Shown piece after piece: positions 14,568-36,463 of a DNA stretch of 64,000 nt. A program made the translations under genes and the position numbers. The notes beneath the pieces are model-generated. The model was not told the DNA's origin, ran no database searches, and saw only the letters and a program-made list of their open reading frames with translations. The stretch's first letter is position 1. Each line of letters begins with the position of its first letter. Source of the stretch: Thiogranum sp. (GTDB lineage Bacteria > Pseudomonadota > Gammaproteobacteria > DSM-19610); the NCBI GenBank assembly GCA_030148805.1, contig JASBSS010000031.1:1-64000 (forward strand). The letters are read 5' to 3'.

Positions 14568-15267
14568 CTGGTTAGATTTTACACGAACACGCCTATTCCC
14601 GGCCTCTTGCCGCCTCTGCCTGGCGCCCGGCGATGACGACCTCGCCCTCTGCGCGCCCTGTCTGGACGAATTACCCTGGCTCGGCCGGGCCTGTAGCCGT
14701 TGCGCCCGACCGCTGACTCCGGCGGCGGCCCAACCGGTTTGCGCCCAGTGCCGGGCACGGCCGCCGGCACTGGACGGCTGTCGGGCGCTGTTCGCCTATC
14801 AGCCGCCGGTGGACCGCTGGATCCAGGCGTTGAAATTCGACGCCGATCTCGCCCTGGCAGGTCTGCTTGGCCAATTATTGGCCAGGCGGATGGGCCCGGC
14901 CGAGGGCAGCTCACCGCGGCTGTTGGCGGTGCCGCTGCATCCCCGCCGCCTGCGCCAGCGGGGCTTCAACCAGGCGCAGGAGATCAGTCGGCCACTTTAT
15001 CGCGAGGGTTGGCGGCCATGCCGCTGTGGCTGCCGCCGCGTGCGCCACACGGGGGCGCAATCGAGCCTGGATGCGCGCCAGCGCGGCGACAATCTGCGTG
15101 GCGCGTTCTCGCTGCGCGGCGACGCGGTCACGGGCAGGCAGCTGCTGTTGATCGACGATGTCATGACCACCGGCGCCACCTTGAACGAATTGGCGCAAAC
15201 GCTGAAGGCGGCCGGCGCCGCCCGCGTGGACGCCTGGGTGATCGCGCGCACGCTGCGCCACGGCTGA
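14557..15267 (+). CDS. comF: ComF family phosphoribosyltransferase-like protein
   Basis: ComF/GntX proteins combine a zinc-finger-like N-terminus with a type I phosphoribosyltransferase fold and are linked to DNA uptake in competent bacteria. Cys pairs are visible in CRLCLAPGDDDLALCAPC and in CSRCARPL/PVCAQC. The PRPP-binding loop is LLLIDDVMTTGATLNE, preceded by VPLHPRRLRQRGFNQA. The frame has TTG codons at 14551 and 14557; GGAAGG ends at 14550, so TTG 14557 has the better spacing (236 residues). It is divergent from the bio operon, a common gammaproteobacterial arrangement. Its last 357 bases are antisense to the extended frame of the Tat protein gene. Confidence 0.9.
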   Translation: MVYNWLDFTRTRLFPASCRLCLAPGDDDLALCAPCLDELPWLGRACSRCARPLTPAAAQPVCAQCRARPPALDGCRALFAYQPPVDRWIQALKFDADLALAGLLGQLLARRMGPAEGSSPRLLAVPLHPRRLRQRGFNQAQEISRPLYREGWRPCRCGCRRVRHTGAQSSLDARQRGDNLRGAFSLRGDAVTGRQLLLIDDVMTTGATLNELAQTLKAAGAARVDAWVIARTLRHG

Positions 15268-16905
15268 GCCGGCGGCGCCGTGGCTCAGGCCAGCGGCTTC
15301 GAACACCAGCAAGCGGTCGAGCGCGGCGCTGTTGCCCAGACCGTGACCGGGGAAGAGGGATTCGAAATTGGCCCGATCGCCATTGAGCGCCATGTAGTTC
15401 AACAACAGCGTGTTGACCAGCAGATTGACATTGTTGGCCGCCGGCGAACTGGCGGTATCCACCGACCCGTCGGCGCGGAACCAGCCGATCTGCTGACGTT
15501 GCAGGGTCGTGACCAGGCCGTCGTCGATGATCCGCGGCGCGGAACCTGGATTGTAGACCAGGAAAAAAGCCGCGGCGGTGGAGGAATTGTCACCGGTCCA
15601 TACCCCCTTGCCGCGACCGTCGACGGAATTGTCGATCATCCCGTTGGAAGCCACCGAGCCGTCGCTGACCACGTAGATCATCAGCGGTTCGCCCCGGATC
15701 GCGGCATAGGCGAGACAGGCGCCGATACAGCGCCCGGCGCGCAGATCGCGCAGCTCGCCGGTGGCGCGCTCGCCGGTGTGATAATCGAATCCGCCCATGG
15801 CGATGGTGCCGGCACCGGCGTGACGGTCGACCACCATTTTCATCACCGAGGCGGTCTTCTGGAACTCGCCACGGTCGCTGCCGCTGAATTCCGCGCTGCT
15901 GAATATACCCGCCGGCCCGACGATATCGACATCGTTGGCCGGATCGACGTCGACCCCGGCGAAGCGATCGGCGATATCCGCGGCGTTGAGATAGCCACAA
16001 CGCACCAGATCCTTGACCACCAGGTCGGCGCCGTTGTTGACCACGGCGTCCAGCCCGGTGTTGACGTTGAACAGCTTTTGATCGCTGATGCGCGCGATCG
16101 ATTCCATGACCGGCACGACGTCATCGGGCCCGAGGATGGCGGTCAGGTTGCCGGTATCGACCATGCCCGTGACATCGCTCGGCCGGTCGACCTTGGTGGG
16201 GCGGATTTCCGGATCGATCAGCGTGCTCGGCGCCATGGAATTCCCGCCCGAATCGGAGTTGCGCGAACCGATCAGCGTCACCACGTCGCCCATGCCGCCG
16301 GCCCGGGCGATACCGTACATGGGGTTGTGCGGATTGTTGCCGGTGTCGTTGTCCGAGCGCGCCGGAATCACCGCGCCGTTGACGTTGCCCAGGGCGGGAC
16401 CGGCTTTTTCCAGAATGCCGCGCAGCAGCGCGCTGTCGGAATGAAAGGCCAGCCCCAGGGTGGTATCGGTGTGATCGCCGTTGCTGGTGGCCGTGGGCGT
16501 GGCCTCGGGCTGCCCAGGGATCTGGTCTCCTGGCAACCCCAGCTTGTTGTAGCCGGCGGTGCTCAGGGTGTCCAGCTGACTGTTGCGCCCGACCAGCACG
16601 TTGGAGCCGGCGAAGTTGGCGCCGCCGGCCAGGTCGAAACAAATGAAGGGGATCTTGCCGACCCCGCCCCCGCCGCCGATGCTGCAGCCGATGCTGGCCG
16701 CCAGCGTGGTCAGATCGCCGGAAAGCGCGGCCCGGGCGGCGCGCGGATGGGAGAACAGGCTGAATACCGAGGCCCCCATCAGCATTCCCGCGCCGGAGAG
16801 AAAACCCTGGCGCAGGAAATCGCGGCGGGTGACCGGTCGCGCGTGGTCGGCATGCCGCAACGGGGCGTTGGGGTGCAGAGCCTTCTTCAAACCTTTCATA
16901 GCCAT
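14911..16905 (-). CDS. Tat-exported DUF1501-like protein; C-terminus probably extended by a frameshift
   Basis: The protein starts with a twin-arginine signal (RRDFLRQGF at 27-35, then a hydrophobic stretch ending AARA) and is exported folded. The body (FDLAGGANFAGSNVLVG, VIPARSDNDTGNNPHNPMYG, AMGGFDYHTGERATGELRD) resembles DUF1501/sulfatase-like proteins found with heme-containing DUF1585/1592-type proteins. Convincing sequence ends near ALDRLLVFEA (about 15300). The frame then runs on without a stop through 357 bases antisense to comF, producing Arg/Ala-rich residues unlike the rest. Removing one G near 15291-15295 would give an ending LLVFEALA at the TGA 15287-15285. So the ORF end at 14911 is probably not native. 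It is the last gene of the minus-strand operon, 6 bases after the LamG gene. Confidence 0.75.
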   Translation of the reverse strand: MAMKGLKKALHPNAPLRHADHARPVTRRDFLRQGFLSGAGMLMGASVFSLFSHPRAARAALSGDLTTLAASIGCSIGGGGGVGKIPFICFDLAGGANFAGSNVLVGRNSQLDTLSTAGYNKLGLPGDQIPGQPEATPTATSNGDHTDTTLGLAFHSDSALLRGILEKAGPALGNVNGAVIPARSDNDTGNNPHNPMYGIARAGGMGDVVTLIGSRNSDSGGNSMAPSTLIDPEIRPTKVDRPSDVTGMVDTGNLTAILGPDDVVPVMESIARISDQKLFNVNTGLDAVVNNGADLVVKDLVRCGYLNAADIADRFAGVDVDPANDVDIVGPAGIFSSAEFSGSDRGEFQKTASVMKMVVDRHAGAGTIAMGGFDYHTGERATGELRDLRAGRCIGACLAYAAIRGEPLMIYVVSDGSVASNGMIDNSVDGRGKGVWTGDNSSTAAAFFLVYNPGSAPRIIDDGLVTTLQRQQIGWFRADGSVDTASSPAANNVNLLVNTLLLNYMALNGDRANFESLFPGHGLGNSAALDRLLVFEAAGLSHGAAGSAVAQRARDHPGVHAGGAGRLQRLRQFVQGGAGGHDIVDQQQLPARDRVAAQRERATQIVAALARIQARLRPRVAHAAAATAAWPPTLAIKWPTDLLRLVEAPLAQAAGMQRHRQQPR

Positions 16906-16911
16906 TGTCTC

Positions 16912-19497
16912 CTATTGCAGCAGCATCGCCGCGCTGCCCAGCACCGACCCACACAGGCCCTTGACCACCGCGCGGGTGCGGGCGGCGTCGCAGGCACCGC
17001 AGGCCGCGCCGTTGGTCATGCGCGCGAACAGGCTGGCGCTGTTGACCAGCGCGCCGCCGTTGTCGTAACCGATCAGCTCGATCTTGATCTGCTCTCGCGA
17101 CGGCGCGTCACTCAAGGCCACGGCACTGCCCGGAAGCCCCACCAACTGATCGTACAAAGCCGAGACCACCTGATTCTTCGCCACCGAGTCCCCGCTGCCG
17201 AAGGCCGTGGCCACATCGGCGTCAAAGGCGCTGAAGCCGGCGGGCGCGAAGAACGCCGTGCGGATGCCCGGGTTCTCCACCAAGGCATCGCAGTAGGACA
17301 ACGCCAGTTGGGTGATGGACATTTGCTGCGCCGCGAGGAATCCCTGGATCGTCTCGACCGCGGGCAGCGCCTGGCGCATGGTGAGAAACGCCGTCTGCAC
17401 GTCGGCGGGGTCGACGCCGGTGGCCGCGGCCATGGCGGCGTCGATTTCATCGAAGGTGCGCAGTCCGACTTGCGCGACCGCACCCGGGTCGGGCAGCGGC
17501 AGCGGCGTGGTGGAGGCGTTATCCACCGTCACATTGGTCGCTGAGCCAAGCCGCTCGAAGCTGAGATAGAACTCGTCGGCGTTGGCCGCATTGGGTCCGT
17601 TCTCCAGCGCGATGACCGTGCCCACCTCCGCCAGGCGCTGCCCCTGCTCGGGATCATAGGCACCGGCGGTGACACGGGTATCGAGCGTGGCGTAGGCCTG
17701 ACCGACGTCAGCCAGACGGCTGTTGATGCCGATCCGCAAGCCCTTGATGGCGATGTCGGGCGGCGCGAACGCCGGGTCCAGATTGATGAAAGTGGGCTTG
17801 CTGAACAGGTAGCTGTAGCTGTCGAATTGTTCCACCTGAAACATGACATAGCTGTTCGCCGGCACCCCGCCGATACCACCCACACCGAACAGGAGAAAGA
17901 ACTTCTCGCCCACGCCGGCGGCGAAATTCTGCTGGATCTGCTCCAGGGTCAAGGCCCGATTGTGGATCGCCATCAGCCGGATCACGCCCTGCCAGAGACG
18001 ATCGCTGGACACCTCGTTGCCCAACACCAGGGCGAAGCTGTCGTCCCAGTCGTTGAGGTTGCCGGGACTGATGTTGTCCGCATCTCCCGTGTAGGCGCCG
18101 TTGACGTAGATACGCCGGCCGTTGACCGGGTCGTAGGTCAGGACCACGTGTTGCAGCGTGGCCTGCAGGCGCTCGTCGGCGTCGGCCGTGGACAAGGCCG
18201 GCTCGCCATTGGCGTCGGCGCTACTGGAACGCTGCAGAAAATCATAGTTGTACTGGGTCTGACCCAGAGTGAAATTGCGCGCGCTGGTACCGGCCGAATA
18301 ACTGACGATCCGCGCGGGCCCTTCCTGCACGACATTGGCCGGCACCACCCAGGCCTCGATGCTGTATTCGCCGGTGGCCTTGATCAGGTCGTGCAACTTT
18401 TTGCTGTTGGCGGTAGAACCCTGCGCCTTGCCGTCGTTGATGCGAATGCCATAGCCACCCACCCAGTCGACGTCGCCGCTGAGGGTGAGGTTGAGCTCGG
18501 GGGCGACGCCGCTGAGATCGAGCACCGTGTTGCCGCTGCCGGTGCGAAATTCATACAGCGCGATGACGTCCTTTTCGTAGCGGTTCCCGCCGGCCGCCGC
18601 CACCCCGTCTTGCAGGGTCAGGGCGTTGCTGAACACCGTCGGCGCCTGTACCTGGTTGGCACTGATACCGCCGGCGAGCGCGGCGATGGCGTTCTGCATC
18701 TCGTTGGCATCGCTGGCGCAGTCGCTCCAGCAATTGTGGAACTCGTCGCGCAGACGCACCACCAGGCGCGACAGCGACGGATCGTTGAGATTGATTTTCG
18801 CCTGCGCGGCGCTGTAGGCATCGGCGAGCACGCCGCTGGCGAAAAACGGCGCCTGGGGCGTGGCCGAGGTATCGACGTGACAACCGGCGCAGTTGGCCGT
18901 CAGCAGCGGCCAGACGGTGGTGGCGAAACTCGTGTCGGCCACGTCGGCCGGAAAAGTCTTGGTCGAGCCGGGGCTCTTCGCCGGTGGCGCGACCAGCTGA
19001 ATCTGACGGCCGCCCGAGGAACTGCCCGCCGCCCAGTTCTCGATGTAGGCGGTGATCGCGGTCGCGCAGGCAGCCGCGTTCGACAACCAGCAGTTGTGCC
19101 CTCCCGCCACCTTGGTCACCAGGCGCGAGCTGGCCGGGCTGGCCAGGTCGACCAGCGGATTGGCCTGTGCGTAGGCCAGGTTGATATCGTCCTGGCGCAC
19201 GAACTGCGGCGACTGCTTGCCTTCGACATGACAGGCGCCGCAGCGGGTGTCGGCGCGCAGGTTTTCCCACAGCTCGGTCTGAAAGGCGCGGATATCGTCG
19301 GTCTGGGCATTCGGACCGGTGTAGCTCGAGGAGTTGACGTTGCCGCCGTTGCTGGTCGGCGGGTTGGTCTCGGTCGACGCACCGCCGCCGCAGGCATCGA
19401 GCAACAAGACCGTTGCGAGCAATGTCAGTAGGCGCAGCCACTGGCGCGCGGCTAACGCGCGATGGGCGGGAAAAAGACTTGGGTGGGGTATCGTCAT
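16912..19497 (-). CDS. di-heme c-type lipoprotein with LamG (concanavalin-like) domain
   Basis: The 861-residue protein has a lipoprotein signal (LLATVLLLDACGGG, Cys 36). Two c-heme motifs follow: RCGACH (86-90) and NCAGCH (203-207), each followed by sequence of the shape LVxLASPASSRLVTK, as in planctomycete-type cytochromes. Residues about 310-520 form a LamG jelly-roll (ALYEFRTGSGNTVLDLSG, YSIEAWVVPAN, HVVLTYDPVNGRRIYVNG). The C-terminal 300 residues are of unknown type. It is probably anchored in the outer membrane. It lies between the heme protein gene upstream and the Tat protein downstream, so the three likely act together, perhaps in electron transfer to a bound polymer or surface. The substrate is not visible. 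Confidence 0.78.
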   Translation of the reverse strand: MTIPHPSLFPAHRALAARQWLRLLTLLATVLLLDACGGGASTETNPPTSNGGNVNSSSYTGPNAQTDDIRAFQTELWENLRADTRCGACHVEGKQSPQFVRQDDINLAYAQANPLVDLASPASSRLVTKVAGGHNCWLSNAAACATAITAYIENWAAGSSSGGRQIQLVAPPAKSPGSTKTFPADVADTSFATTVWPLLTANCAGCHVDTSATPQAPFFASGVLADAYSAAQAKINLNDPSLSRLVVRLRDEFHNCWSDCASDANEMQNAIAALAGGISANQVQAPTVFSNALTLQDGVAAAGGNRYEKDVIALYEFRTGSGNTVLDLSGVAPELNLTLSGDVDWVGGYGIRINDGKAQGSTANSKKLHDLIKATGEYSIEAWVVPANVVQEGPARIVSYSAGTSARNFTLGQTQYNYDFLQRSSSADANGEPALSTADADERLQATLQHVVLTYDPVNGRRIYVNGAYTGDADNISPGNLNDWDDSFALVLGNEVSSDRLWQGVIRLMAIHNRALTLEQIQQNFAAGVGEKFFLLFGVGGIGGVPANSYVMFQVEQFDSYSYLFSKPTFINLDPAFAPPDIAIKGLRIGINSRLADVGQAYATLDTRVTAGAYDPEQGQRLAEVGTVIALENGPNAANADEFYLSFERLGSATNVTVDNASTTPLPLPDPGAVAQVGLRTFDEIDAAMAAATGVDPADVQTAFLTMRQALPAVETIQGFLAAQQMSITQLALSYCDALVENPGIRTAFFAPAGFSAFDADVATAFGSGDSVAKNQVVSALYDQLVGLPGSAVALSDAPSREQIKIELIGYDNGGALVNSASLFARMTNGAACGACDAARTRAVVKGLCGSVLGSAAMLLQ

Positions 19498-19521: not shown

Positions 19522-20751
19522 TCAGTTGCCCTTGCAGGCGTCGGCCGCATTGGCGAACAGATCTTTCATGTTGTAGCTGGTGTCGAAACCGCTGGCGGCC
19601 AGCAAGGTGCCCAGCGCGCTTTCGGAGGGCTCGGCAAGGCATACCGAACGATAGACCTTGATGCCCTGACAACGCGCGAAGGCAGCGCTTGCGGCCAGCT
19701 CCTGGCCAAGGGTCTTGGCACCAAAGCGCTGACCGGCAGGGATTTCGCTGCCCCAGCCGAGATTGGCGTTACGACCCTGGCGCCAATAGTTGTCCCAATG
19801 ATCGTCCGGCGTGACATAGCCATCGCGGAAATTGTCGGCGTTGATGAGATATTTTGGCTGCACCGCCCCGGGGGTGTATTCGAGACGTCCGCTGCTTTCA
19901 TTGTACTGGTAATAGGCGTAGGCCTGGGCCATCGGATCCATGCCGGCGTGACAACCCACGCAGCTGTTGAGAAAGATGCGACTGTCGCCGCCGGGGCTGC
20001 GACTGACATCCTGGCGGATACGGTCCGGCGGGGTGGTATTGTCCTTCAACGGCTCCAGATCCGTGCACAGGTGGTTCATCAAGGTGAAGCGGAACATGGC
20101 CCGGTTGGTGCCGGCGACGAAAAACGCCTCGGCCGCGGCACGGCTGGTGACCACCCCGGCCGTGGCGCTGGCGGGGATGCCTGTCAGACTCGATTGCACA
20201 TTGCTTTGCAGCACGCTGGGGTCGCTCAGGTCATAGTGCAGGTCTTCCAGATCCTGATAGTGCGCATTGTCGGCGGGCGAGTAGGCCGCCACGCCGGGCA
20301 GGCCGGCCGCGCCCTTGTAAAGCAGATCGGCGGAAAGCACCTGATTGAACGGCACGTCGTCGCGGATCATGCCGATCACGGTGGCGCTGTAGTCGTTGAG
20401 CGGCACGAACGCGGACTGATCCTCGTTGGTCCAGGGCGAGGCGAAGTTCTTCAACGTCACGGTGTAGAAGTTGAACGCCAGGGGGTTCTGCGCGGGGTCC
20501 ATGGCCAGCTGAGCCGCGGCGACACCACTGCCGCCATTGCTGAGGATGGCCTGCTCCATCGCGCCCAGAACCGCCTGGGTGGGAGCGACGCCTGTCAGCC
20601 GGTCGTGGATACGCTTGGCCTGTCGCCGTTCGGTGTCACCGGCCAGCGCACTGCCGGCCAACAGTAGCGCGGCCAGGCCAAGCGCGCACAGCGTCAGTCC
20701 CTTGCCGCCGTCTGACAACGCTGTGGCAGCGCGGTTGTCGGTAGAAATCAT
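19522..20751 (-). CDS. exported mono-heme protein related to DUF1585/1588-type (planctomycete-like) proteins
   Basis: The 409-residue protein has an N-terminal signal (LTLCALGLAALLLAGSALA) and one c-heme site, NSCVGCHAGMDPMAQAYAYY (CVGCH at 264-268). The section FFVAGTNRAMFRFTLMNHLC before it is a recognisable feature of this group. The shape Cys-x-x-Cys-His-x-x-Met-Asp-Pro resembles the DUF1588/DUF1585 heme-containing proteins common in Planctomycetes. It is the first gene of the minus-strand operon with the LamG lipoprotein and the Tat protein. A sigma-54-type promoter (20811-20796) lies about 45-60 bases upstream of its ATG. Function unknown. Confidence 0.75.
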   Translation of the reverse strand: MISTDNRAATALSDGGKGLTLCALGLAALLLAGSALAGDTERRQAKRIHDRLTGVAPTQAVLGAMEQAILSNGGSGVAAAQLAMDPAQNPLAFNFYTVTLKNFASPWTNEDQSAFVPLNDYSATVIGMIRDDVPFNQVLSADLLYKGAAGLPGVAAYSPADNAHYQDLEDLHYDLSDPSVLQSNVQSSLTGIPASATAGVVTSRAAAEAFFVAGTNRAMFRFTLMNHLCTDLEPLKDNTTPPDRIRQDVSRSPGGDSRIFLNSCVGCHAGMDPMAQAYAYYQYNESSGRLEYTPGAVQPKYLINADNFRDGYVTPDDHWDNYWRQGRNANLGWGSEIPAGQRFGAKTLGQELAASAAFARCQGIKVYRSVCLAEPSESALGTLLAASGFDTSYNMKDLFANAADACKGN

Positions 20752-20795
20752 TGGGCGCCTCTTTCATCTTGTGTGGTGCGAGCTTCCCGGCCGAT

Positions 20796-20811
20796 TGCAA
20801 TAACCGGTCCA
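20796..20811 (-). promoter_or_regulatory. sigma-54 (-24/-12) promoter candidate for the minus-strand heme operon
   Basis: On the minus strand the sequence TGGACCGGTTATTGCA matches TGGCACG-N4-TTGCW with the invariant GG and GC at the required spacing and two mismatches. The predicted start of transcription falls roughly 35 bases before the ATG at 20751. Confidence 0.6.
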
Positions 20812-21043
20812 GCACTTTCCCTGTGAAGTCTGCAGCGACCTTAAAACCGCCCGCCGGGCGATTCCGTGACGCCGTCCCCAAATATCGGCATGCCCCTAGG
20901 TATATGAATGGCTGTGGATAACCGGGCAGGAAGCGGGGAGGATTCTGCGACCAAACGCACAGATGGGGGTCGAGGGTCTGCCTATAGTCGCGTGAGACAG
21001 GCTGCCGGTTTACTGTCGGAAGGACCCGCGTGGTGTCTGCGAC

Positions 21044-21104
21044 TGGCGACAAAGCCCGGGCTAAACGCTTCATCTATAAGGTGTCGCCATTGGCATTGGC
21101 GACA
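21044..21104. promoter_or_regulatory. repeat cluster, candidate enhancer-binding-protein site
   Basis: TGGCGACA occurs at 21044-21051 and again at 21097-21104, where it pairs with TGTCGCCA (21082-21089) to form a perfect 8-bp inverted repeat around a 7-base centre. The longer form GGCGACAAA occurs at 21045-21053 and 21098-21106. The same 9-mer (as TTTGTCGCC) occurs at 28415-28423 upstream of the third operon's sigma-54-type promoter. The position 10-70 bases upstream of the -24 element suits a sigma-54 activator. Confidence 0.55.
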
Positions 21105-21114
21105 AATGTCCGGC

Positions 21115-21130
21115 AGGCCCGATCCTTGCT
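21115..21130 (+). promoter_or_regulatory. sigma-54 (-24/-12) promoter candidate for the HzsA-like operon
   Basis: AGGCCCGATCCTTGCT matches TGGCACG-N4-TTGCW with GG and GC at exact spacing, TTGC intact and two mismatches. Transcription would start near 21140, just before the GAGGAG ribosome site at 21146-21151. Confidence 0.6.
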
Positions 21131-21158
21131 TACGCCTTTGGGCCTGAGGAGCAGACTT

Positions 21159-21185
21159 ATGTATCGGCGGCGCCAACCATCATGA
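21159..21185 (+). CDS. 8-codon leader frame coupled to the HzsA-like gene
   Basis: A good ribosome site (GAGGAG, 21146-21151) is seven bases from an ATG at 21159 that encodes MYRRRQPS and stops at TGA 21183-21185. This stop overlaps the ATG (21182) of the large lipoprotein gene as ATGA. The large gene has no ribosome site of its own, so its translation may depend on the leader. It is equally possible that the short frame has no regulatory role beyond coupling. Confidence 0.45.
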   Translation: MYRRRQPS

Positions 21186-23872
21186 TCAGCGGAACTATCT
21201 TCTCCACCGAACAGACCGCGACCCGTATCGTTCTGAGAGCGGCCGCGGGGTTGTGTTGCCTGGCGCTACAGGCCTGCGGCGGCGGGGGCAGCGGCGGTCT
21301 CGACCCGCTGGTGGAGGACTTCGGCATCGCCTATGTCCGCCAGCCGGTACCCGAGAACGACGACGAGGATCTGCGCGATCCCACGGCCTTTCACCCTGGC
21401 GGCGATCTGATATTCCGTGATCTGGCCTCACCCGGCGCCGCCGAGCGCAATGTGACCGCGTCGGTGACCGGCGGCCTGGGCGACGTGCGCGACCTGGAGG
21501 TCTCCTACGACGGCAGCAAACTGCTGTTCTCGCTGCGACTTCCCGACATCGAAGGGGCGGCGCCGGAAGACCAGCCGACCTGGAACCTGTGGGAATACGA
21601 CATCGCCAGCGACAGCTTGCGCCGCCTGATCGACTCCGACATCATCGCCGAGGACGGCCAGGATATCGCGCCCCACTATCTGCCGGACGGCCGGATCATT
21701 TTCTCCTCCACCCGGCAGCGCACGGCCAAGGCCCTGCTGACCGATGAAGGCAAACCCCAGTTCTCGGCGCTGGACGAAAACGAGAACGTCCCCGCCTTCG
21801 TGCTGCATGTCCTGGATGCCCGCAATCCACCCGTCCAGGCCAACGACATTCAGCAGGTCTCATTCAACCAGAGCCACGACCTGGATCCCCTCGTGCTGGA
21901 TGACGGCAGCATCGTGTTTTCCCGCTGGGACAACATGGGCAGCCGCGACGGAGTCCACCTCTACAGCATGTATCCCGACGGCACCCGGTTGCGGTTGGTC
22001 TACGGCGCCAACAGCCACGCCACGGGGACCAACGGCGCCATGGTCGACTTTACCGACGTACGCCAGACGTTGGACGGTCGAATCCTCGCCCTCGTGAAAC
22101 AGTCGCGGGGCAGCTTCCAAGGCGGCGACATCGTCACCATCGACAGCAACAACTATATCGACAACACGCAACCGACCGCCGTCAACGCCGGCATCCTCAG
22201 CGGGCCCGCCCAGGTCTCGGTGTCCTTCGGCCAGACCACCACCGACGGCACGCCTTCACCCGGCGGCCGCTTCAACAGCTTCTATCCGCTGGCCGACGGT
22301 ACCGGTCGCATTCTCATCAGCTGGAGTCAATGCCGCTTGATGGTGGACGCGCGCATCGTACCCTGCACCCCCAGCCTGCTGGCCGATCCGGCGGCGGTAC
22401 AAGCCCCGCCGCTGTATGGCGTCTATCTGTACGATCCGGCGGCACAGACGCAACAACCGATATTCGCCCCGCAGGAAGGCCTGCTCTACAGGGACGTGGT
22501 GGCCGCTCAACCCAAGGCCCTGCCCCCGATCTATTTCGATCAGCAAGGGCCGGCGACGGCGGACTACGATCTCGATCCGGCGCTGGTCGCGCAGCAGGTA
22601 GGCATTCTGAATATCCGCAGCGTCTACGATTTCGACGGCACGTTTAACAACCTGGGTAGCGGCAAGCCCGACATTGCCACGCTGGCCGACCCCCAGACCA
22701 CGGTGGCGGACGAACGCCCGGCGCGCTTCCTGCGAATCGTCAAGGCGGTGGGTATCCCGGACGCCGATCTGGTAAACGTCCGGGGCGCCGATTTTGGTCG
22801 CAGCAGGCAACAGCTGATGCGCGAAATCATCGGCTACGCGCCGATCGAACCCGACGGCTCGGTGCGGATCAAAGTGCCTGCCAATATTCCTTTCGCCATT
22901 AGCGTACTCAATAAAGACGGCAAACGCATTACCGGCCGCCATCAGAGCTGGTTGCAACTGCGGCCCGGCGAGATTATGAATTGCGCCGGTTGTCACAACC
23001 CCAACACCGGCACCTCGCACGGGCGCGCCGATGCATTCACCGCACTTTATGCAGGCGCCCCCTTCGATGGCTACGTTTTCCCTAACACCGAAACCGTCTT
23101 CGCCAACACAGGCGAAACCATGGCCGAAGCTCGCAGCCGCATGGACCCAACGGCGTCAAATCCCAGCGTGGACATCCACTATCTGGATCCGTGGACCGAC
23201 GAAGTCGCCGCCGGCCGGCTCAAGGATACTGCGTTCGACTATAATTACGCCGACCTGGACCCAGCGCTGAACGCGCCGGCCAGCACCGATTGCCAGGCCG
23301 CCTGGACACCTTTGTGCCGCACCGTCATCAATTACGAAACCCACATTCATCCGCTCTGGAATCTTCCCCGGGGCGCCGGCGCCGACACCTGCATCAACTG
23401 TCACTCGGACAGCGATGCCATGGGCAATCCTCAGGTTCCGGCCGGCCAGCTCGACCTCGGCGACGGCATTTCCGATCAGAACGCCAACCACTTCAAGTCA
23501 TACCGGGAGCTGCTTTTCAACGACAACGAGCAAATCATCGATGTGGGCAGCGGCTTGCTGATCGACCGCCTGGTACAGGATACCGACGGCGCGGGCAACC
23601 CGTTGTTCCAGACCGACGCGGACGGCAATTTGATTCTCGACGGCGGCGGAAACCCGATTCCGGTCATGGTTCCGGTCACCGTCTCACCCAGCATGCGGGT
23701 TGGCGGTGCGATTGCCAGCAGCCGTTTCTTCGACATGTTCAGCAACCCGGCCGATCCGCGCAATGCGGTAACCAACCACGTGGGATTCCTGACACCCGAG
23801 GAACTCAAACTGCTGGCGGAATGGCTGGACATTGGCGGTCAGTACTACAACAATCCCTTCGACATCCCTTGA
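21182..23872 (+). CDS. HzsA-related di-heme lipoprotein with beta-propeller (hydrazine synthase alpha-like)
   Basis: The 896-residue protein has a lipoprotein signal (CCLALQACGGG) and an N-terminal TolB/PD40-type beta-propeller (repeats such as DVRDLEVSYDGSKLLFS, YLPDGRIIFSSTRQ, LDDGSIVFSRWDNMG). A middle domain contains MREIIGYAPIEPDGSVRIKV and NCAGCHNPNTGTSHGR (CAGCH 601-605). A second c-heme site is CINCHSDSD (737-741). This order of propeller, middle domain and two hemes follows the HzsA-related family, named for the alpha subunit of anammox hydrazine synthase. No beta/gamma HZS subunits are present, so hydrazine synthesis is not implied. It starts a plus-strand operon running to ApbE. 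The ATG at 21182 overlaps a short leader frame and lacks its own ribosome site. Confidence 0.8.
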   Translation: MISGTIFSTEQTATRIVLRAAAGLCCLALQACGGGGSGGLDPLVEDFGIAYVRQPVPENDDEDLRDPTAFHPGGDLIFRDLASPGAAERNVTASVTGGLGDVRDLEVSYDGSKLLFSLRLPDIEGAAPEDQPTWNLWEYDIASDSLRRLIDSDIIAEDGQDIAPHYLPDGRIIFSSTRQRTAKALLTDEGKPQFSALDENENVPAFVLHVLDARNPPVQANDIQQVSFNQSHDLDPLVLDDGSIVFSRWDNMGSRDGVHLYSMYPDGTRLRLVYGANSHATGTNGAMVDFTDVRQTLDGRILALVKQSRGSFQGGDIVTIDSNNYIDNTQPTAVNAGILSGPAQVSVSFGQTTTDGTPSPGGRFNSFYPLADGTGRILISWSQCRLMVDARIVPCTPSLLADPAAVQAPPLYGVYLYDPAAQTQQPIFAPQEGLLYRDVVAAQPKALPPIYFDQQGPATADYDLDPALVAQQVGILNIRSVYDFDGTFNNLGSGKPDIATLADPQTTVADERPARFLRIVKAVGIPDADLVNVRGADFGRSRQQLMREIIGYAPIEPDGSVRIKVPANIPFAISVLNKDGKRITGRHQSWLQLRPGEIMNCAGCHNPNTGTSHGRADAFTALYAGAPFDGYVFPNTETVFANTGETMAEARSRMDPTASNPSVDIHYLDPWTDEVAAGRLKDTAFDYNYADLDPALNAPASTDCQAAWTPLCRTVINYETHIHPLWNLPRGAGADTCINCHSDSDAMGNPQVPAGQLDLGDGISDQNANHFKSYRELLFNDNEQIIDVGSGLLIDRLVQDTDGAGNPLFQTDADGNLILDGGGNPIPVMVPVTVSPSMRVGGAIASSRFFDMFSNPADPRNAVTNHVGFLTPEELKLLAEWLDIGGQYYNNPFDIP

Positions 23873-23920: not shown

Positions 23921-24703
23921 ATGAACCCGGCACTGGACCGAGCCTGGATGTTGGCTGTCCTGCTCGCCTGTCTGCTGGTGATGGCGCCTCCGGCGCACGC
24001 CGGTTGGTGGCAGGGTCTGTTCGCCGATCGCGAGCCGCTGAGCGTCGAGGTCGCCGACCCCTACATCGAACTGCACACCGGCGCCGGCCGCGGCTATCCT
24101 GTCTTCCACGTCGAGGAACGAGGCGCGCACATCGATATCCTGAAGCGCAAAACCGACTGGTTCAAAGTGCGCACCGCCCGGGGGAAGGAGGGCTGGGTGT
24201 ATCGCGGACAACTGGAGCGCACGCTGACACCGAGCGGCGCGCAGATGCATATCGCCGAGGCGACACAGAAGGAGTTCGCCTTCCACCGCTGGGAAGCCGG
24301 CGCCACCGGCGGCGACTTCGAAGGCGCCGATGTCATGTCGATTTACGGCGGCTACTCCCTGACGCCAAAATTTTCCGTCGAGGTGTCGCTGGCGAAGATC
24401 TTCGCTCGCTTTTCCTCAGGCGAAAGCGCCGATGTCAGCTTGAACATCCACCCCTTTCCCGAGTGGCGCTTTTCGCCCTTCTTCGCCCTCGGAACCGGTC
24501 TGATCCACTCCAACCCCGACACCACGCTGGTGCAGGAATCGGATCGCACCGACCAACTGGCGCACGTGGGTCTGGGCTTGCGGGTGTATCTGGCCAGACG
24601 TTTCATCTTCCGCGTACAGTACAAGAACTACCTCATATTTCAGAGCACCGACGACAACCAGGAGATCAATGAATGGAAAGCAGGATTTGCCGTATTTTTC
24701 TGA
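23921..24703 (+). CDS. exported protein with bacterial SH3 domain and outer-membrane beta-barrel-like domain
   Basis: The 260-residue protein has a signal peptide (LLVMAPPAHA) and an SH3b domain in its first third (YIELHTGAGRGYPVFHVEERG, then TDWFKVRTARGKEGWVYRGQL). The remainder has alternating aromatic strands ending in WKAGFAVFF, the terminal-Phe pattern of outer-membrane beta-barrels. SH3b domains often bind peptidoglycan or peptides. The 3' end overlaps the next gene by 31 bases. Its likely role is an outer-membrane anchor or pore for the redox proteins of this operon. Confidence 0.72.
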   Translation: MNPALDRAWMLAVLLACLLVMAPPAHAGWWQGLFADREPLSVEVADPYIELHTGAGRGYPVFHVEERGAHIDILKRKTDWFKVRTARGKEGWVYRGQLERTLTPSGAQMHIAEATQKEFAFHRWEAGATGGDFEGADVMSIYGGYSLTPKFSVEVSLAKIFARFSSGESADVSLNIHPFPEWRFSPFFALGTGLIHSNPDTTLVQESDRTDQLAHVGLGLRVYLARRFIFRVQYKNYLIFQSTDDNQEINEWKAGFAVFF

Positions 24704-25323
24704 ACGGCGCCTGGCCGCTGACGGCGCTGCTATGCCTGACGTCGGTGGCGGCGGCGGCAGCGCCGGCCGAGCAGGTGGTGCGCCCGGAAATCGAGCGCCG
24801 CGACATTCACGAAGCCGACATCGACACCGAGGATTTCGAAATCGGGGCCTTTTTCGGCGCCATGAACGTCGAAGACTTCGGCACCAATCCGGTCTACGGA
24901 CTGCGCCTGACCTATCACGTAACCGAGAACCTGTTTGCCGAGGCGGCCTACGGCCACAGCAACACCAGCGAAACCAGCTTCGAGCGCCTCAGCGGTTCGG
25001 CGAAACTGCTCAGTGGCGATGACCGCAAGCTGGACTACCTGAATCTTTCCGTGGGCTACAGCCTGTTGCCCGGCGAGGCTTTCATCGGCAGCCGCTATGC
25101 CTTCAGCAGCGACTTCTACCTGATCGCCGGTGCCGGCGGCACGCGCTTCGCCGGCGAGGACAACTTCACCTGGAATTTCGGCTTTGGTTACAAACTGCTG
25201 CTCAATGACTGGCTGGCGATACGCCTCGATGCCCGCGACCACGTGTTCAGCCTGGATCTGCTGGGGGATTCGCAAACCAATCACAACCTGGAGTTCACCG
25301 GCGGCGTGTCGATGTTTTTCTGA
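24673..25323 (+). CDS. outer-membrane beta-barrel protein
   Basis: The 216-residue protein has a signal peptide (LTALLCLTSVAAAAA) followed by alternating hydrophobic strands and ends in GGVSMFF, with the C-terminal phenylalanine used by the BAM machinery. The mature N-terminus (EIERRDIHEADIDTEDFEIG) is acidic, and the barrel begins around FFGAMNVEDFGTNPVYGLRL. It overlaps the SH3/barrel gene by 31 bases, so the two are probably made together. No ligand is predictable. A similar barrel beside TlpA/DUF4266/DUF3570/ApbE genes recurs in other gammaproteobacteria as far as I recall. Confidence 0.72.
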   Translation: MESRICRIFLNGAWPLTALLCLTSVAAAAAPAEQVVRPEIERRDIHEADIDTEDFEIGAFFGAMNVEDFGTNPVYGLRLTYHVTENLFAEAAYGHSNTSETSFERLSGSAKLLSGDDRKLDYLNLSVGYSLLPGEAFIGSRYAFSSDFYLIAGAGGTRFAGEDNFTWNFGFGYKLLLNDWLAIRLDARDHVFSLDLLGDSQTNHNLEFTGGVSMFF

Positions 25324-25429
25324 ACTGTGAGCCAGATCGCGTTTTCCGGCCACGGGCCGGCCGACAACTTGCAGGCCGGGCGCAGCCACGAGGTCGCGCA
25401 TGCCCGGACAGGTTCAAAGGAGAGATAGC

Positions 25430-25936
25430 ATGAAATTATTCAGTCTGACACCCCGCCTCTACGTCATCGCCTTGATCGTGATGCTGGCTAGCGTGGCCGC
25501 CACGGCGGATATCAAACAGGCCGCAGCCCCGGACTTCACCCTGAAAAGCGCCAGCGGGGAGAACCTCCGTCTGAGCGAATTGCGTGGCGAAGTGGTGATG
25601 ATCAACTTCTGGGCTTCGTGGTGCGGACCGTGTCGCCAGGAAATGCCGTTGCTCGAGGAGCTATACAATCAGTACAGCCCGATGGGTTTCACCATTGTGG
25701 GAGTGAACGTGGAGGAAGACTCCAGCAAGGCGCGGGAAATGCTCAAGGACATTCCGGTGAATTTTCCGGTCGTGTTCGACAACAAGAGCACCGTGAGCAG
25801 GCTCTATGACGTGGTCGCCATGCCCAGCACCGTACTGGTCGACCGCGACGGCAATATCCGGTATCTTCATCGCGGTTATAAGCCGGGTTACGAGGAAACC
25901 TATCAGCAACAGGTGCGCGCACTGATCAGGGAGTAA
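25430..25936 (+). CDS. TlpA/ResA-like exported thioredoxin
   Basis: This 168-residue protein has a signal or anchor sequence (YVIALIVMLASVAATA) and a TlpA-type thioredoxin fold. Visible parts are APDFTLKSASGENLRLSEL, NFWASWCGPCRQEMPLLEEL (WCGPC at 64-68) and the cis-proline VVAMPSTVLVDRDG. Such proteins reduce disulfides in the periplasm, often on apocytochromes or metal-binding Cys pairs. The ATG at 25430 follows AAAGGAGAG. It lies 2 bases upstream of the DUF4266 lipoprotein, whose Cys-containing tail is an obvious possible client, though that is inference. Confidence 0.9.
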   Translation: MKLFSLTPRLYVIALIVMLASVAATADIKQAAAPDFTLKSASGENLRLSELRGEVVMINFWASWCGPCRQEMPLLEELYNQYSPMGFTIVGVNVEEDSSKAREMLKDIPVNFPVVFDNKSTVSRLYDVVAMPSTVLVDRDGNIRYLHRGYKPGYEETYQQQVRALIRE

Positions 25937-25938
25937 CA

Positions 25939-26166
25939 GTGAAATTCAGCGGACAGCTATTGGCGATCCTGGGGGCGGTGTCGCTCAGCGCCTGCAGCGG
26001 CGTCGAGCCCTGGGTGAAACCCTACGAACGGGCCCATCTGGCGGACCCTATCATGAGCTTCAGTCGCAATCCGGTGGCGGATGACTTTGCCAGCCATGTC
26101 TACCAGGTCAGGGAAGGCGCCCGCGGCGCGGAAGGCGGACATGGAGGCGGCTGTGGCTGCAACTGA
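25939..26166 (+). CDS. DUF4266 small lipoprotein with Gly/Cys C-terminal tail
   Basis: This 75-residue protein starts with GTG and has a lipobox (AVSLSACSG, Cys 19). The core EPWVKPYERAHLADPIMSF and NPVADDFASHVYQVREG is the DUF4266 signature. It ends GGHGGGCGCN, placing two cysteines and a histidine in a flexible glycine tail, suited to metal binding or covalent attachment. DUF4266 genes regularly accompany DUF3570, ApbE and TlpA genes. Overlap with the DUF3570 start (26 bases) and a 2-base gap to TlpA indicate tight coupling. Function unknown. Confidence 0.85.
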   Translation: MKFSGQLLAILGAVSLSACSGVEPWVKPYERAHLADPIMSFSRNPVADDFASHVYQVREGARGAEGGHGGGCGCN

Positions 26167-27337
26167 GCGCCGCGCGCCGACGTTTCTTCGGGCGGCACGC
26201 GCCGCGGCGGCAACCACGCCACTGGCGCTGTTGCTGGTCTCGCCTTCCCTCGACGCCGGCGTGCTCGCCGAGGACCGGACCGATGCGCTCTATCATTCCT
26301 ACGACGGCGGCGGCGTGCAGGTCACCGGACCATCGCTGCTGGTGCGCAAGGGCGACAACAAGCAGTTTTCCGGGGCGCTCAACTATTATGTCGACAACAT
26401 CTCCAGCGCCTCGGTCGACGTGGTCACCCAGGGCAGTCCCTACAGCGAGAAGCGCAGCGAATGGTCGGGCAGCGTCGATTATCTGCACGCCGACACCACC
26501 ATGACCGCCGGCTACACCCGCAGCGACGAAAGCGACTATCAGGCCAATACCTTCAGTTTCAGCATCAGTCAGAGCATGTTTGGCGAGCTGACGACCGTCA
26601 CGCTCGGCTATTCCCGCGGCTTCGACGACATTTCCAGTAACGTGGACGCCGCGGTCGACGAAAGCGCCGATCACCAGAATTATCACGTGTCGCTTTCCCA
26701 GGTGCTGAGCAAGAATCTGCTGCTCAGCCTCAACTACGACGCGGTGACCGACGAGGGTTTCCTTCGCAACCCCTATCGCCGCGTCTATGTGCTGGACGAC
26801 CCCAACGACCCCAACGGTCTGGCCAACTTCAATACCCCCGAGCGTTATCCCAGCACCCGCACCAGCAATGCGTTGTCGGCCAATTTTCTTTACTACCTGC
26901 CTTACCGTGCCTCGCTTAAGCTCGGTTATCGCTACTACGCCGACGATTGGGATATCAGCGCCCATACCGTCGATCTTCGCTATACTCATCCGCTCGGCAG
27001 CCGCTGGCTGTTCGACGTCGGCGCGCGTTACTACCAACAGACGCGCGCCGATTTCTACGCCGATCTGTTCCAGCGGCCCGACCAGCAGAACTTCATGGCG
27101 CGCGACAAGGAACTGAGTGAGTTCAAGGACTACAGCCTCGGCTTTGGCGTGACCTACAATCTGCTGAAAAAGCCCTATGGCTTCATCGACAAGGCCACGC
27201 TCAATTTCAACTATGACCGCATCTGGTTCAAGTACGACGACTTCTCCGACGTCAGCGGCGGCGGCCCGGCGGCGCAGGCGCCACTGTACGAGTTCGACGC
27301 CGACGTGATGCGCTTCTACGGATCGATCTGGTATTGA
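26141..27337 (+). CDS. DUF3570 outer-membrane beta-barrel protein
   Basis: The frame is open from 26081, but the ATG at 26141 gives a plausible exported protein of 398 residues (MEAAVAATERRAPTF, then a hydrophobic signal ending SLDA). The family signature LAEDRTDALYHSYDGGGVQV follows. The rest is a series of amphipathic strands rich in Tyr (VSLSQVLSKNLLLSLNYDAV, LKLGYRYYADDWDISAHTV) and ends in MRFYGSIWY, as in a large barrel of about 20 strands. DUF3570 proteins are of unknown function but genetically linked to ApbE flavin transferases. The stop overlaps the ApbE TTG start. Confidence 0.82.
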   Translation: MEAAVAATERRAPTFLRAARAAAATTPLALLLVSPSLDAGVLAEDRTDALYHSYDGGGVQVTGPSLLVRKGDNKQFSGALNYYVDNISSASVDVVTQGSPYSEKRSEWSGSVDYLHADTTMTAGYTRSDESDYQANTFSFSISQSMFGELTTVTLGYSRGFDDISSNVDAAVDESADHQNYHVSLSQVLSKNLLLSLNYDAVTDEGFLRNPYRRVYVLDDPNDPNGLANFNTPERYPSTRTSNALSANFLYYLPYRASLKLGYRYYADDWDISAHTVDLRYTHPLGSRWLFDVGARYYQQTRADFYADLFQRPDQQNFMARDKELSEFKDYSLGFGVTYNLLKKPYGFIDKATLNFNYDRIWFKYDDFSDVSGGGPAAQAPLYEFDADVMRFYGSIWY

Positions 27338-28365
27338 GAGCGCGGCGGTCTCTGGGCGCCCTGGCCGCACTGTGCGCCCTGCTTGCCCTGGCTGTGCCTC
27401 ACGCGCGGGCCGGCTGGCGGCACGAAGAAGCCGACATCATGGGCACCCGCATCAGCGTCGAGCTGTTTCACGAAGACGCAGCGGTGGCCCGCCAGGGCGT
27501 GGCGCGCGTCATGGCGCAGATGCGCCGTATCGACCGCGACATGAGTCCATGGATCGAAAGCAGCGAACTCGCCCGACTGAACCGCGAAGCGGCTACCCAT
27601 CCGGTGGTGGTCAGCCAGGAGCTGTTCGATCTGATCACCACCTCGTTGCACTACTCGCGCCTGACCCGGGGCGCGTTCGATATCACCTTTGCCAGCGTCG
27701 GTTTTCTCTACGATTATCGCCGCGGCGTCCACCCGGACGAGGCGCAGCGCAGCGCCGCCACCGACCTGATCAACTATCGCAATCTGATCCTCGACCCCAA
27801 GGCCCACAGCATCGCCTACAGCAAAGCCGGGGTACGCATCGACCTCGGCGGCATCGCCAAGGGGTACGCGGTGGACCGCTGCATCGAACAGCTGCAATCG
27901 CTCGGCATCCGCCAGGCACTGGTGACTGCCGGCGGCGACAGCCGCATGATCGGCGAGCGCTGGCAGGGCCGTCCCTGGAAGATCGGCGTCCAGGATCCGC
28001 GCGATCCCGACAAACTGGTGGCGATCATTCCCCTGGAGAATGTGGCGGTGTCCACCTCGGGAGACTACCAGCGCTATTTCGAGGAAAACGGCGTACGTTA
28101 TCACCACATCATCAATCCCGCCTCCGGCGACTCGGCGCGCGGGATGCGCAGCGCCACCCTCATCGGACCCGACGCGACGACCACCGACGCCTTGTCGACC
28201 AGCGTCTTCGTGCTCGGCGTCGAAGCCGGGCTGGCGCTGGTCAACCGGTTGCCGGACATCGATGCCATTGTGGTCGACGCCCAGGGCCGCCTGCACTATT
28301 CCGACGGACTGCTGCCGGCTGACGAGACTCGGGACGTCAAAACTCCGGCGACCGCGCCCCGCTGA
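27334..28365 (+). CDS. apbE: FAD:protein FMN transferase (ApbE family), exported
   Basis: ApbE covalently attaches FMN from FAD to Ser/Thr of periplasmic proteins. The 343-residue protein has a signal peptide (LAALCALLALAVPHARA) and the family landmarks EADIMGTRISVEL, DRDMSPWIESSELARLN, RIDLGGIAKGYAVDR, VTAGGDSRMIG and HHIINPASGDSA. TTDALSTSVFVLG completes the Mg site. It starts at TTG overlapping the DUF3570 stop (TTGA) and ends the operon. The acceptor protein is not obvious. No canonical D-x-x-[ST]-G-A-[ST] motif is seen in the operon, but a degenerate one exists in the first protein of the next operon. Confidence 0.93.
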   Translation: MRARRSLGALAALCALLALAVPHARAGWRHEEADIMGTRISVELFHEDAAVARQGVARVMAQMRRIDRDMSPWIESSELARLNREAATHPVVVSQELFDLITTSLHYSRLTRGAFDITFASVGFLYDYRRGVHPDEAQRSAATDLINYRNLILDPKAHSIAYSKAGVRIDLGGIAKGYAVDRCIEQLQSLGIRQALVTAGGDSRMIGERWQGRPWKIGVQDPRDPDKLVAIIPLENVAVSTSGDYQRYFEENGVRYHHIINPASGDSARGMRSATLIGPDATTTDALSTSVFVLGVEAGLALVNRLPDIDAIVVDAQGRLHYSDGLLPADETRDVKTPATAPR

Positions 28366-28681
28366 CTGGCTGACCCGACCACGGGGGGCCCCGTCACGGA
28401 CGCGTTTGCGTCGCTTTGTCGCCGAAACCCCACAATTTTCTCCGCCGATACGGCGCTCGACCCGGGGCTTGCGCCCAAGCGCTTGATTTTCAGCGGCTGG
28501 CACAGAGATTGCCTTATCCGGGGAATAAAGAGACACCCAAGCAGCACACCGGGGCGGTGCACGCGTGGACGGATCTGTGATCCGCCTCACGTTTACGCCG
28601 TGATACGGATTCCGGAAGCGGACACCGGCTGCCGATGATACTAGGACCGGCTGACATCACACCACGGTCGCAGGAGAGCGC
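28366..28681. other. 316-base control region of the TPR/ExbBD operon
   Basis: No gene is visible. The region contains TTTGTCGCC at 28415-28423, also found upstream of the HzsA-like operon, and a near-perfect sigma-54 promoter at 28498-28513. The roughly 160-base leader that follows contains a small GGATC-TGT-GATCC hairpin near 28570. Confidence 0.6.
28498..28513 (+). promoter_or_regulatory. sigma-54 (-24/-12) promoter for the TPR/ExbBD operon
   Basis: TGGCACAGAGATTGCC matches the consensus TGGCACG-N4-TTGCW at all key positions (TGGCAC and TTGC intact, exact spacing). It is the best sigma-54 match in the window. The half-site TTTGTCGCC is about 75 bases upstream, a normal place for an activator. 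Confidence 0.72.
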
Positions 28682-29209
28682 ATGCACAGGTTATACAGAG
28701 GATTGCTGGCCGCACTGGTGTTGTGGCCATGGCTGCCAGCGGCGGCTGAAACGCCACCCCAGGCGCACCAGGGCGTGCAGGACGCCGTCCAGAGCCTCAA
28801 GCAGCAGGTGCTCGAACTCAACCGCGACCTGTTCCTGCTGGAGGAGGAGCTGCTGTTCCCCACCAACACCCAGGTCTCGGTGTTCGTGTCCATGGACGTG
28901 GGCGAATTCTTCCAGCTCGATTCGGTGCAATTGAAAATCGACGGCAAGGAGGTCGCCGACTATCTGTATACCCCGCGCGAACTCGACGCGCTGGCTCGCG
29001 GTGGCGTACAGCGGCTGCACATCGGCAACCTGCGCAACGGCGAGCACGAGCTGGTGGCCTTCTTCACCGGCAAGGGCCCCAAGGGGCGCGACTATCGCCG
29101 CGGCGCCACCACCACCATCACCAAAGGCTTGGGACCGAAGTACGTGGAACTGCGCATCGTCGACCAAACGCGTAACTATCAGCCCGAATTTGCCGTCAAG
29201 GAGTGGTAA
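28682..29209 (+). CDS. conserved periplasmic protein, first gene of the TPR/ExbBD operon
   Basis: The 175-residue protein has a signal peptide (LLAALVLWPWLPAAA), a short coiled-coil (QSLKQQVLELNRDLFLLEEE) and a beta-rich domain beginning TNTQVSVFVSMDVGEFFQLD. It contains GRDYRRGATTTITKG (Asp 137, Gly-Ala-Thr 141-143), resembling the D-x-x-x-G-A-[ST] shape of FMN-acceptor motifs but lacking the usual Ser/Thr before the glycine. Members of this family are sometimes mislabelled AraC-type regulators; there is no DNA-binding domain here. It overlaps the next start as TAATG. The context suggests an envelope adaptor. Confidence 0.72.
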   Translation: MHRLYRGLLAALVLWPWLPAAAETPPQAHQGVQDAVQSLKQQVLELNRDLFLLEEELLFPTNTQVSVFVSMDVGEFFQLDSVQLKIDGKEVADYLYTPRELDALARGGVQRLHIGNLRNGEHELVAFFTGKGPKGRDYRRGATTTITKGLGPKYVELRIVDQTRNYQPEFAVKEW

Positions 29210-33845: not shown

Positions 33846-34431
33846 AACGCTGGGCGCATGTCTGGCGCTCGCCTTGGTGCCGCTGAGCGGCTGCAGCCAT
33901 ACGCCCGGGCGCGGGAAACCGGCCGCCAGCGCCGAGCCGGCGGCGCTGCCAACGGCCTACGAACAAGCGCTGCACCTGATGCGCGATGGCGAGTACGCCG
34001 CGGCCATCGCTCCACTGCGGGCGTTCAGCGCGTCCCATCCCGACATGGCCGGTCCTTATGTCAATCTGGGCATCGCCTATGGACGCACCGGGCAGGCCGA
34101 GGCGGCGCTACAGGCGCTCGACCAGGCACTGACGTTGAATCAGGACAATGCTGCGGCACAGTTGCAACGCGGCATCCTGTATCGCGAGCAAGGTCACTTC
34201 CAGGCCGCCCTGGAGGCTTATCAGCAGGCGCTGAAGCTGCGTCCCGATTATGCCCTGGCGCACCGCAATCTGGGCATTCTTTACGATCTGTACCTGCAGC
34301 AACCGACGTTGGCGCTACGCCATTACAAGCGCTATCTGGCCCTTGCCGGCGACGACGACAAGACGGTGAGCGGCTGGGTCATCGATCTGGAGCGCCGCGC
34401 GGGCGCGGCGACCGCGAGCGTCACGCCATGA
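33826..34431 (+). CDS. TPR lipoprotein
   Basis: The frame is open far upstream, but TTG 33826 has GGAG six bases before it and yields a clean lipoprotein signal (LGACLALALVPLSGCSH), giving 201 residues. Three to four TPR motifs follow: ALHLMRDGEYAAAIAPLRAF, PYVNLGIAYGRTGQAEAALQ, AQLQRGILYREQGHFQAALE and AHRNLGILYDLYLQQPTLAL. It overlaps the end of the larger TPR lipoprotein and the start of the following small gene (ATGA). It probably assembles with the other TPR proteins of the operon at the outer membrane. Confidence 0.82.
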   Translation: MSPFWSKTLGACLALALVPLSGCSHTPGRGKPAASAEPAALPTAYEQALHLMRDGEYAAAIAPLRAFSASHPDMAGPYVNLGIAYGRTGQAEAALQALDQALTLNQDNAAAQLQRGILYREQGHFQAALEAYQQALKLRPDYALAHRNLGILYDLYLQQPTLALRHYKRYLALAGDDDKTVSGWVIDLERRAGAATASVTP

Positions 34432-34715
34432 ACCGCGGCGCACCCCGCAGCTCAGCGACCGCCTGCGCACTCCTGGCAGTGCTGCTGGCGACGGCCGCAC
34501 CGGCCGCGCAGCAGCTCGACATGGAGGGTATGTCGGTGACCGGCAACAGCGAATTGCCCAAGGCGCTGTTCATCGTGCCCTGGAAGGATCCGCAAGCCGG
34601 CCTGTCGCCGGAACGCCCGGTGAACAGCCTGATCGACGAGGCGTTACAGCCGGTCGACCCGGAGGTGTTTCGCCGGGAACTGGATTATTTCGACACAGTT
34701 CGCAAAAAGGACTAA
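34428..34715 (+). CDS. small exported protein of unknown function
   Basis: A 95-residue frame starts at ATG 34428, overlapping the preceding stop (ATGA). It has a signal peptide (CALLAVLLATAAPAA) and a short mature region with MSVTGNSELPKALFIVPWKD and FRRELDYFDTVRKKD. The segment ELPKALFIVPWK looks like a conserved core. I do not recognise a domain. Its fixed place between the TPR lipoprotein and the ExbB-like gene suggests a structural part of the same complex. Confidence 0.7.
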   Translation: MNRGAPRSSATACALLAVLLATAAPAAQQLDMEGMSVTGNSELPKALFIVPWKDPQAGLSPERPVNSLIDEALQPVDPEVFRRELDYFDTVRKKD

Positions 34716-34720
34716 AGAAA

Positions 34721-34736
34721 CGGGGTCTTAGCCCCG
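34721..34736 (+). other. intercistronic hairpin before the ExbB-like gene
   Basis: CGGGG-TCTTAG-CCCCG forms a small GC stem within the 52-base gap between the small exported protein and the ExbB-like gene. There is no T-run, so it is more likely an mRNA processing or stability element than a terminator. Confidence 0.4.
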
Positions 34737-34767
34737 ACTAACAGGAGATACTTCTAAGGAGCCCAGC

Positions 34768-36451: not shown

Positions 36452-36463
36452 GATCGCTCCCCC

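Follow-up and report, generated by a model that had tools for sequence, protein, structure and literature searches.

Our analysis points to two layers of control over a pair of divergent heme-protein operons in Thiogranum sp. As read from the sequence, GlrR and sigma-54 probably act through a box at 21034-21051 and three promoters, and this layer lies above an older CRP-type sigma-70 layer. The window, i.e. the whole stretch of 64,000 nucleotides that was analyzed, belongs to a 3.78-Mb draft genome, and the congeners with which it was compared are MAGs of Thiogranum or Thiohalobacter. The divergent gene pair, encoding a mono-heme protein of 409 aa and a di-heme protein of HZS_alpha-like type, was found across Gammaproteobacteria. 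All features are collected in Table 1, where the extent of the operons around the divergent region is as predicted. Because of the domains and CxxCH motifs, the gene cluster can be read as encoding a cell-surface redox machinery; in PMC8238504 the set of thioredoxin, DUF4266, DUF3570 and ApbE is presented as a system for flavin-based electron transfer outside the cytoplasm. At the start of the right operon a short frame, MYRRRQPS-stop (21159-21185), follows a GAGGAG and overlaps the ATG at 21182 as ATGA, and it is possible that this frame is a leader with coupled translation.

Table 1. Features of the divergent region, the surrounding operons and the glrR locus; positions are those of the window unless a locus is named
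Feature	Position	Strand	Remark
664-aa protein, twin-arginine-like signal; left operon	14911..16905	-	domain search: no match
LamG-domain protein, two CxxCH; left operon	16912..19497	-	PF13385
409-aa secreted-type protein, one CxxCH; left operon gene 1	19522..20751	-	divergent arrangement class-wide
Left sigma-54 promoter TGGACCGGTTATTGCA; predicted start near 20785	20796..20811	-	10/12 consensus, GG-N10-GC
-10-like element TAAGGT (congeners TATATT or TAGATT)	20838..20843	-	class-II spacing
CRP-type site of leftward sigma-70 promoter; degenerate here CGTGACGCCGTCCCCA, congeners TGTGAACCAGTCCACA	20865..20880	-	columns 0.85
CRP-type site TGCGACCAAACGCACA of rightward sigma-70 promoter	20946..20961	+	centre -41.5 from TATAGT
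-10 element TATAGT of rightward class-II sigma-70 promoter	20983..20988	+	CTATAGTC columns agree 0.94
GlrR (QseF) box TGTCTGCGACTGGCGACA, TGTC-N10-GACA; candidate shared enhancer	21034..21051	.	fits published boxes; conserved half-sites
Inverted pair TGTCGCCA-N7-TGGCGACA; two GlrR-like half-sites, spacing 5 bp too long	21082..21104	.	perfect 8+8 repeat
Right sigma-54 promoter AGGCCCGATCCTTGCT; predicted start near 21141	21115..21130	+	10/12 consensus, GG-N10-GC
HZS_alpha-like protein, CxxCH at residues 601 and 737; right operon gene 1	21182..23872	+	PF18582
Right operon remainder: two outer-membrane barrel proteins, thioredoxin-like, DUF4266-like (25939-26166), DUF3570, ApbE	23921..28365	+	
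Weaker GlrR-type box TGTCGCCGAAACCCCACA, fits TGTN12ACA; 63 bp from third -24 element	28417..28434	+	
Third sigma-54 promoter TGGCACAGAGATTGCC, between apbE and the 28682 gene	28498..28513	+	absent from the original prediction
Third unit: conserved 175-aa protein, two TPR proteins, 285-aa protein, ExbB, two ExbD, TonB	28682..37420	+	
glrR-linked box/promoter region	L225:3782-3966, contig C6; also L227-L243	-	

The original prediction proposed two opposed sigma-54 promoters with a shared enhancer, built on two -24/-12 matches with invariant GG/GC spacing. Both matches are present as described, and phylogenetic footprinting of 12 orthologous regions, the genus and sister-genus loci that hold the full region, supports the arrangement. 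Single 10/12 matches are not unusual (9 in the window vs 8.0 ± 3.0 in shuffles); a divergent pair this good in a 430-bp intergenic region occurred in 1 of 2000 shuffles, and the pair therefore exceeds chance. Both sites have GG and GC intact in all 12 regions, even though protein identity has fallen to about 63% or lower. Against a regional background of 0.62 in the 12-region alignment, column agreement was 0.83 for the left site and 0.86 for columns 21117-21132, which cover most of the right one. Neither site is found in most of the 73 other gammaproteobacterial divergent regions. The genome encodes rpoN. Since both promoters deviate from TGGCAC at the -24 element, they may be weak.

The predicted enhancer is the 18-bp element at 21034-21051 and not the inverted pair at 21082-21104 to which the original prediction had pointed, because the half-sites of the former are conserved (column agreement 0.96 and 0.92 vs the background of 0.62 in the 12 regions) and the halves of the latter fall below background (0.47 and 0.58). 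The sequence TGGCGACA that had been singled out at 21044 is indeed there (21044-21051); rather than a complete element, it is the right half of the TGTC-N10-GACA box, which is 63 bp away from the -24 element on the right and 222 bp from that on the left. Of the inverted pair, only the closest relatives retain the right half, GCGACA. In 130 of 1000 shuffles a perfect inverted repeat of 8+8 arose when gaps of up to 20 were allowed, and a genome search for TGTCGC-N11-GCGACA with one mismatch allowed gave no enrichment (35 matches vs 39 for the reversed control), so the palindrome by itself is not beyond chance, and a genome-wide regulon based on it was rejected. The inverted pair is thus probably not the enhancer. 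That it serves another, unspecified activator, as originally modeled, would be in keeping with a perfect repeat adjoining the right promoter, and is nevertheless very improbable given how common such repeats are in shuffles, the missing conservation and enrichment, and the short distance, about 48 bp, between the repeat centre and the predicted right start.

TGTCN10GACA is the published site of QseF/GlrR (PMC8745638), also given as TGTN12ACA (PMC6075780); our definition of the box is taken from these later papers and directly from E. coli, i.e. from the three sites upstream of glmY read from the K-12 genome (TGTCTGTAAATCACGACA, TGTCGCTTTCTGGCGACA and TGTCTCTTTTTAGCGACA). With a matrix from the glmY sites alone, the box at 21034 ranks first of the ~64,000 positions in the window (14.6 bits). 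A second matrix was made only from genus boxes downstream of glrR, with nothing from the window among the training boxes, and again the 21034 box came first, at 16.7 bits with the runner-up at 12.4. As the genus training boxes were chosen by the E. coli matrix, neither matrix depends on the window, although they are not entirely independent of one another. Boxes scoring 13 bits or more were found in 8 of the 12 genus regions (0.07 expected) and in 11 of the 73 other regions (1.2 expected; never more than 4 in 200 shuffles). In three genus regions there are two boxes, spaced 19 bp apart, and in some congeners (L038, L040 and L049) the boxes are displaced by one or more positions. The intergenic region studied here has a single full box, compared with the three of E. 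coli glmY.

The absence of an activator gene from the window was confirmed, as all 20 Sigma54_activat matches in the genome, 16 of them strong bEBPs, are on other contigs. One of these is a GlrR-like response regulator (L225:3956-5320, contig C6) with a receiver domain, AAA+ and a Fis-type HTH, which shares 58.6% identity with E. coli GlrR over 444 aa, with the next bEBP at 43%. Its HTH is 61% identical to that of E. coli GlrR and the recognition helix, RNRTEFYKLL, is the same. The best NCBIfam model is GlrR by about 213 bits; the score of 626 bits does not reach the NF011695 cut-off of 763, and therefore we call the protein GlrR-like. The activator had been expected to be an orphan, and here the prediction failed for the best candidate, which has a kinase gene beside it: the order on C6 is glrK, a small gene and glrR, where the GlrK homologue is 31% identical and the 157-aa gene in the qseG position has no detected similarity. 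With 16 strong enhancer-binding proteins encoded and the GlrR-like protein below the curated cut-off, real sigma-54 promoters could be served by another of these proteins; we consider this unlikely, as the GlrR recognition helix is found in none of the other 15, whose HTH identity is at best 45% (over 40 aa), and TGTC-N10-GACA boxes and sigma-54 promoters lie directly behind glrR in most congeners. A PrsR (PEP-CTERM-box) regulator that scores well above the curated cut-off is also encoded in the genome (L003, contig C30:492299-492796). Identity of the box with that of PrsR was rejected, the conserved element here ending in GCGACA and the recognition helix of PrsR being different.

The assignment to a GlrR-like protein agrees with the distribution of the gene. 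GlrR is present in 16 of the 17 genus and sister-genus genomes compared (G000-G017), the exception being G005, which is 79% complete. Among genomes from outside the genus, a box is present in this region in 3 of the 6 that have GlrR and in 0 of the 15 that do not (one-sided Fisher p = 0.015, a test of few points that ignores phylogeny and hinges on the fixed E-value at which GlrR was scored as present). Behind glrR most congeners have one or two TGTC-N10-GACA boxes and usually a sigma-54 promoter, before ybgC-tolQ. In many of them this unit holds a small EF-hand-like protein (DSDxNGYVSRVEAR) and a terminator; no such reading frame was seen behind glrR in this genome or in G014. A GlmY-like small RNA at this place was rejected, as there was no Rfam match and many congeners carry the EF-hand-like gene instead.

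The third sigma-54 promoter is kept in all 15 genus and sister-genus genomes that hold the downstream gene, and in one of these it matches the consensus at 12/12. The weaker box ahead of it ranks fourth in the window with the E. coli matrix and eighth with the genus matrix. Better boxes are found upstream of the third promoter in five congeners (G001, G008, G003, G002 and G017), and several of the third-promoter regions scanned with the matrix are without a good box. Since a third conserved sigma-54 promoter and a weaker GlrR-type box precede the TPR/ExbB/ExbD/TonB operon, the cluster as a whole, ~22 kb, has the appearance of a single GlrR regulon.

The lower layer, which the original prediction did not include, is visible as CRP-type sites. 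The centre of the right one is at -41.5 or -42.5 from a TATAGT-like -10 element in 12 of 12 congeners, which is the class-II position; in this genome it has 8 of 10 TGTGA-N6-TCACA positions, and the column agreement is 0.73. The left site has 8-9 of 10 positions in most congeners, with a -10-like element at matching spacing in most of the 12 regions, less clear than on the right. A sigma-70 promoter with a -35 match was searched for in the region and none was found, as expected of an activator-dependent promoter. Sites resembling TGTGA-N6-TCACA are in excess class-wide (mean best 8.44 vs 7.05 in shuffles), no excess was found for an FNR box, which was rejected, and a CRP/Vfr-like protein (L166) is encoded among several other members of the family. 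Many of the 73 non-genus intergenic regions have a single central CRP-like site, TGTGAnnGnnTTAACA, with -10-like sequences on both sides, as if one site served both directions. CRP-type control of two divergent sigma-70 promoters is likely the ancestral state. One could go further and let the CRP-type promoters alone drive the region, with sigma-54 matches that are decayed or bound without activation; the class-II spacing throughout the class and the lack of sigma-54 sites in most relatives would fit. We regard this as improbable, because neither sigma-54 site has lost its GG or GC in any of the 12 congeners in spite of the protein divergence, and the enhancer is conserved together with them.

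In the preferred reading, with GlrR and sigma-54 above the CRP-type layer, we infer binding, phosphorylation, activation, signals, start sites and the CRP-family protein involved as follows. The envelope-sensing kinase GlrK would phosphorylate GlrR (QseF), both being encoded on another contig, and the phosphorylated GlrR would bind TGTC-N10-GACA at 21034-21051. By DNA looping from this box it could activate E-sigma-54 at the right (21115-21130) and left (20796-20811) promoters, and the third promoter at 28498 would respond to it as well, so that with an active kinase the heme-protein, DUF3570/ApbE and TPR/TonB operons are expected to rise together. In the lower, class-wide layer a CRP-family activator at class-II positions would drive the two divergent sigma-70 promoters. 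To this the Thiogranum lineage would have added, or kept, the GlrR box, the pair of opposed sigma-54 promoters and the third one downstream, thereby linking the genes to envelope sensing. In a second, Woeseiaceae-like lineage (L061, L114, L141 and L142) a strong sigma-54 site that reads TGGCACAGCACTTGCT, or differs from it by one base, is directed toward the left gene, and in 3 of the 4 loci a GlrR box precedes this site by 167-168 bp. As this lineage has both a sigma-54 site and GlrR boxes, the GlrR/sigma-54 layer may have been added (or kept) more than once.

The mechanism would be ordinary and the regulon new. GlrR (QseF) is known, in the literature that we found, almost only for glmY and rpoE in enterobacteria, and here an enhancer legible base by base would link it to a gene cluster of sulfur-oxidising bacteria. 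The time at which the HZS_alpha-like, DUF3570/ApbE and TonB genes are expressed thus becomes open to testing, and one lineage shows the sigma-54 layer added to (or kept over) an older CRP-type divergent promoter. Tentatively, GlrK-GlrR might ancestrally control a gammaproteobacterial surface redox machine of heme, DUF3570/ApbE, TPR and TonB proteins, the sRNA-centred role at glmY in enterobacteria being a derived use. If true, extracytoplasmic electron transfer would be among the other targets of GlrR.

The closest known system is the E. coli glmY promoter (PMC6075780), which has in common with the region described here the TGTC-N10-GACA box, a sigma-54 -24/-12 promoter, a homologous response regulator with the kinase gene beside it and an additional sigma-70 promoter. 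There the target is a small RNA, with three boxes and overlapping promoters, whereas here protein operons would be controlled from one full box, the promoters being divergent and the CRP-type sigma-70 promoters separate from them. E. coli rpoE P2 (PMC6075780) is also a GlrR-dependent sigma-54 promoter of a protein gene, concerned with envelope homeostasis, although the target is another one and is transcribed in one direction only. PrsR and the PEP-CTERM box (Haft 2006, PMC1569441) likewise involve a response-regulator bEBP, and the activator motif is on average 63 bp from the sigma-54 motif; however, PrsR motif 1 (17 nt) ends in TTTACA and not in GACA, and its targets are PEP-CTERM genes. The DUF3570/DUF4266/thioredoxin/ApbE set of the flavinylation clusters of Meheust 2021 (PMC8238504) is also present in the right operon, but here DUF3570 is without the [ST]GA[ST] flavinylation motif. 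In this protein (26081-27337) SSAS stands in place of the [ST]GA[ST] of flavinylated members and the motif is absent elsewhere in the protein; only 1 of 49 relatives matched at this position has ISGA, yet apbE is retained. A further difference from the Meheust clusters is that the set is here joined to HZS_alpha-like and LamG heme proteins and to a TonB unit.
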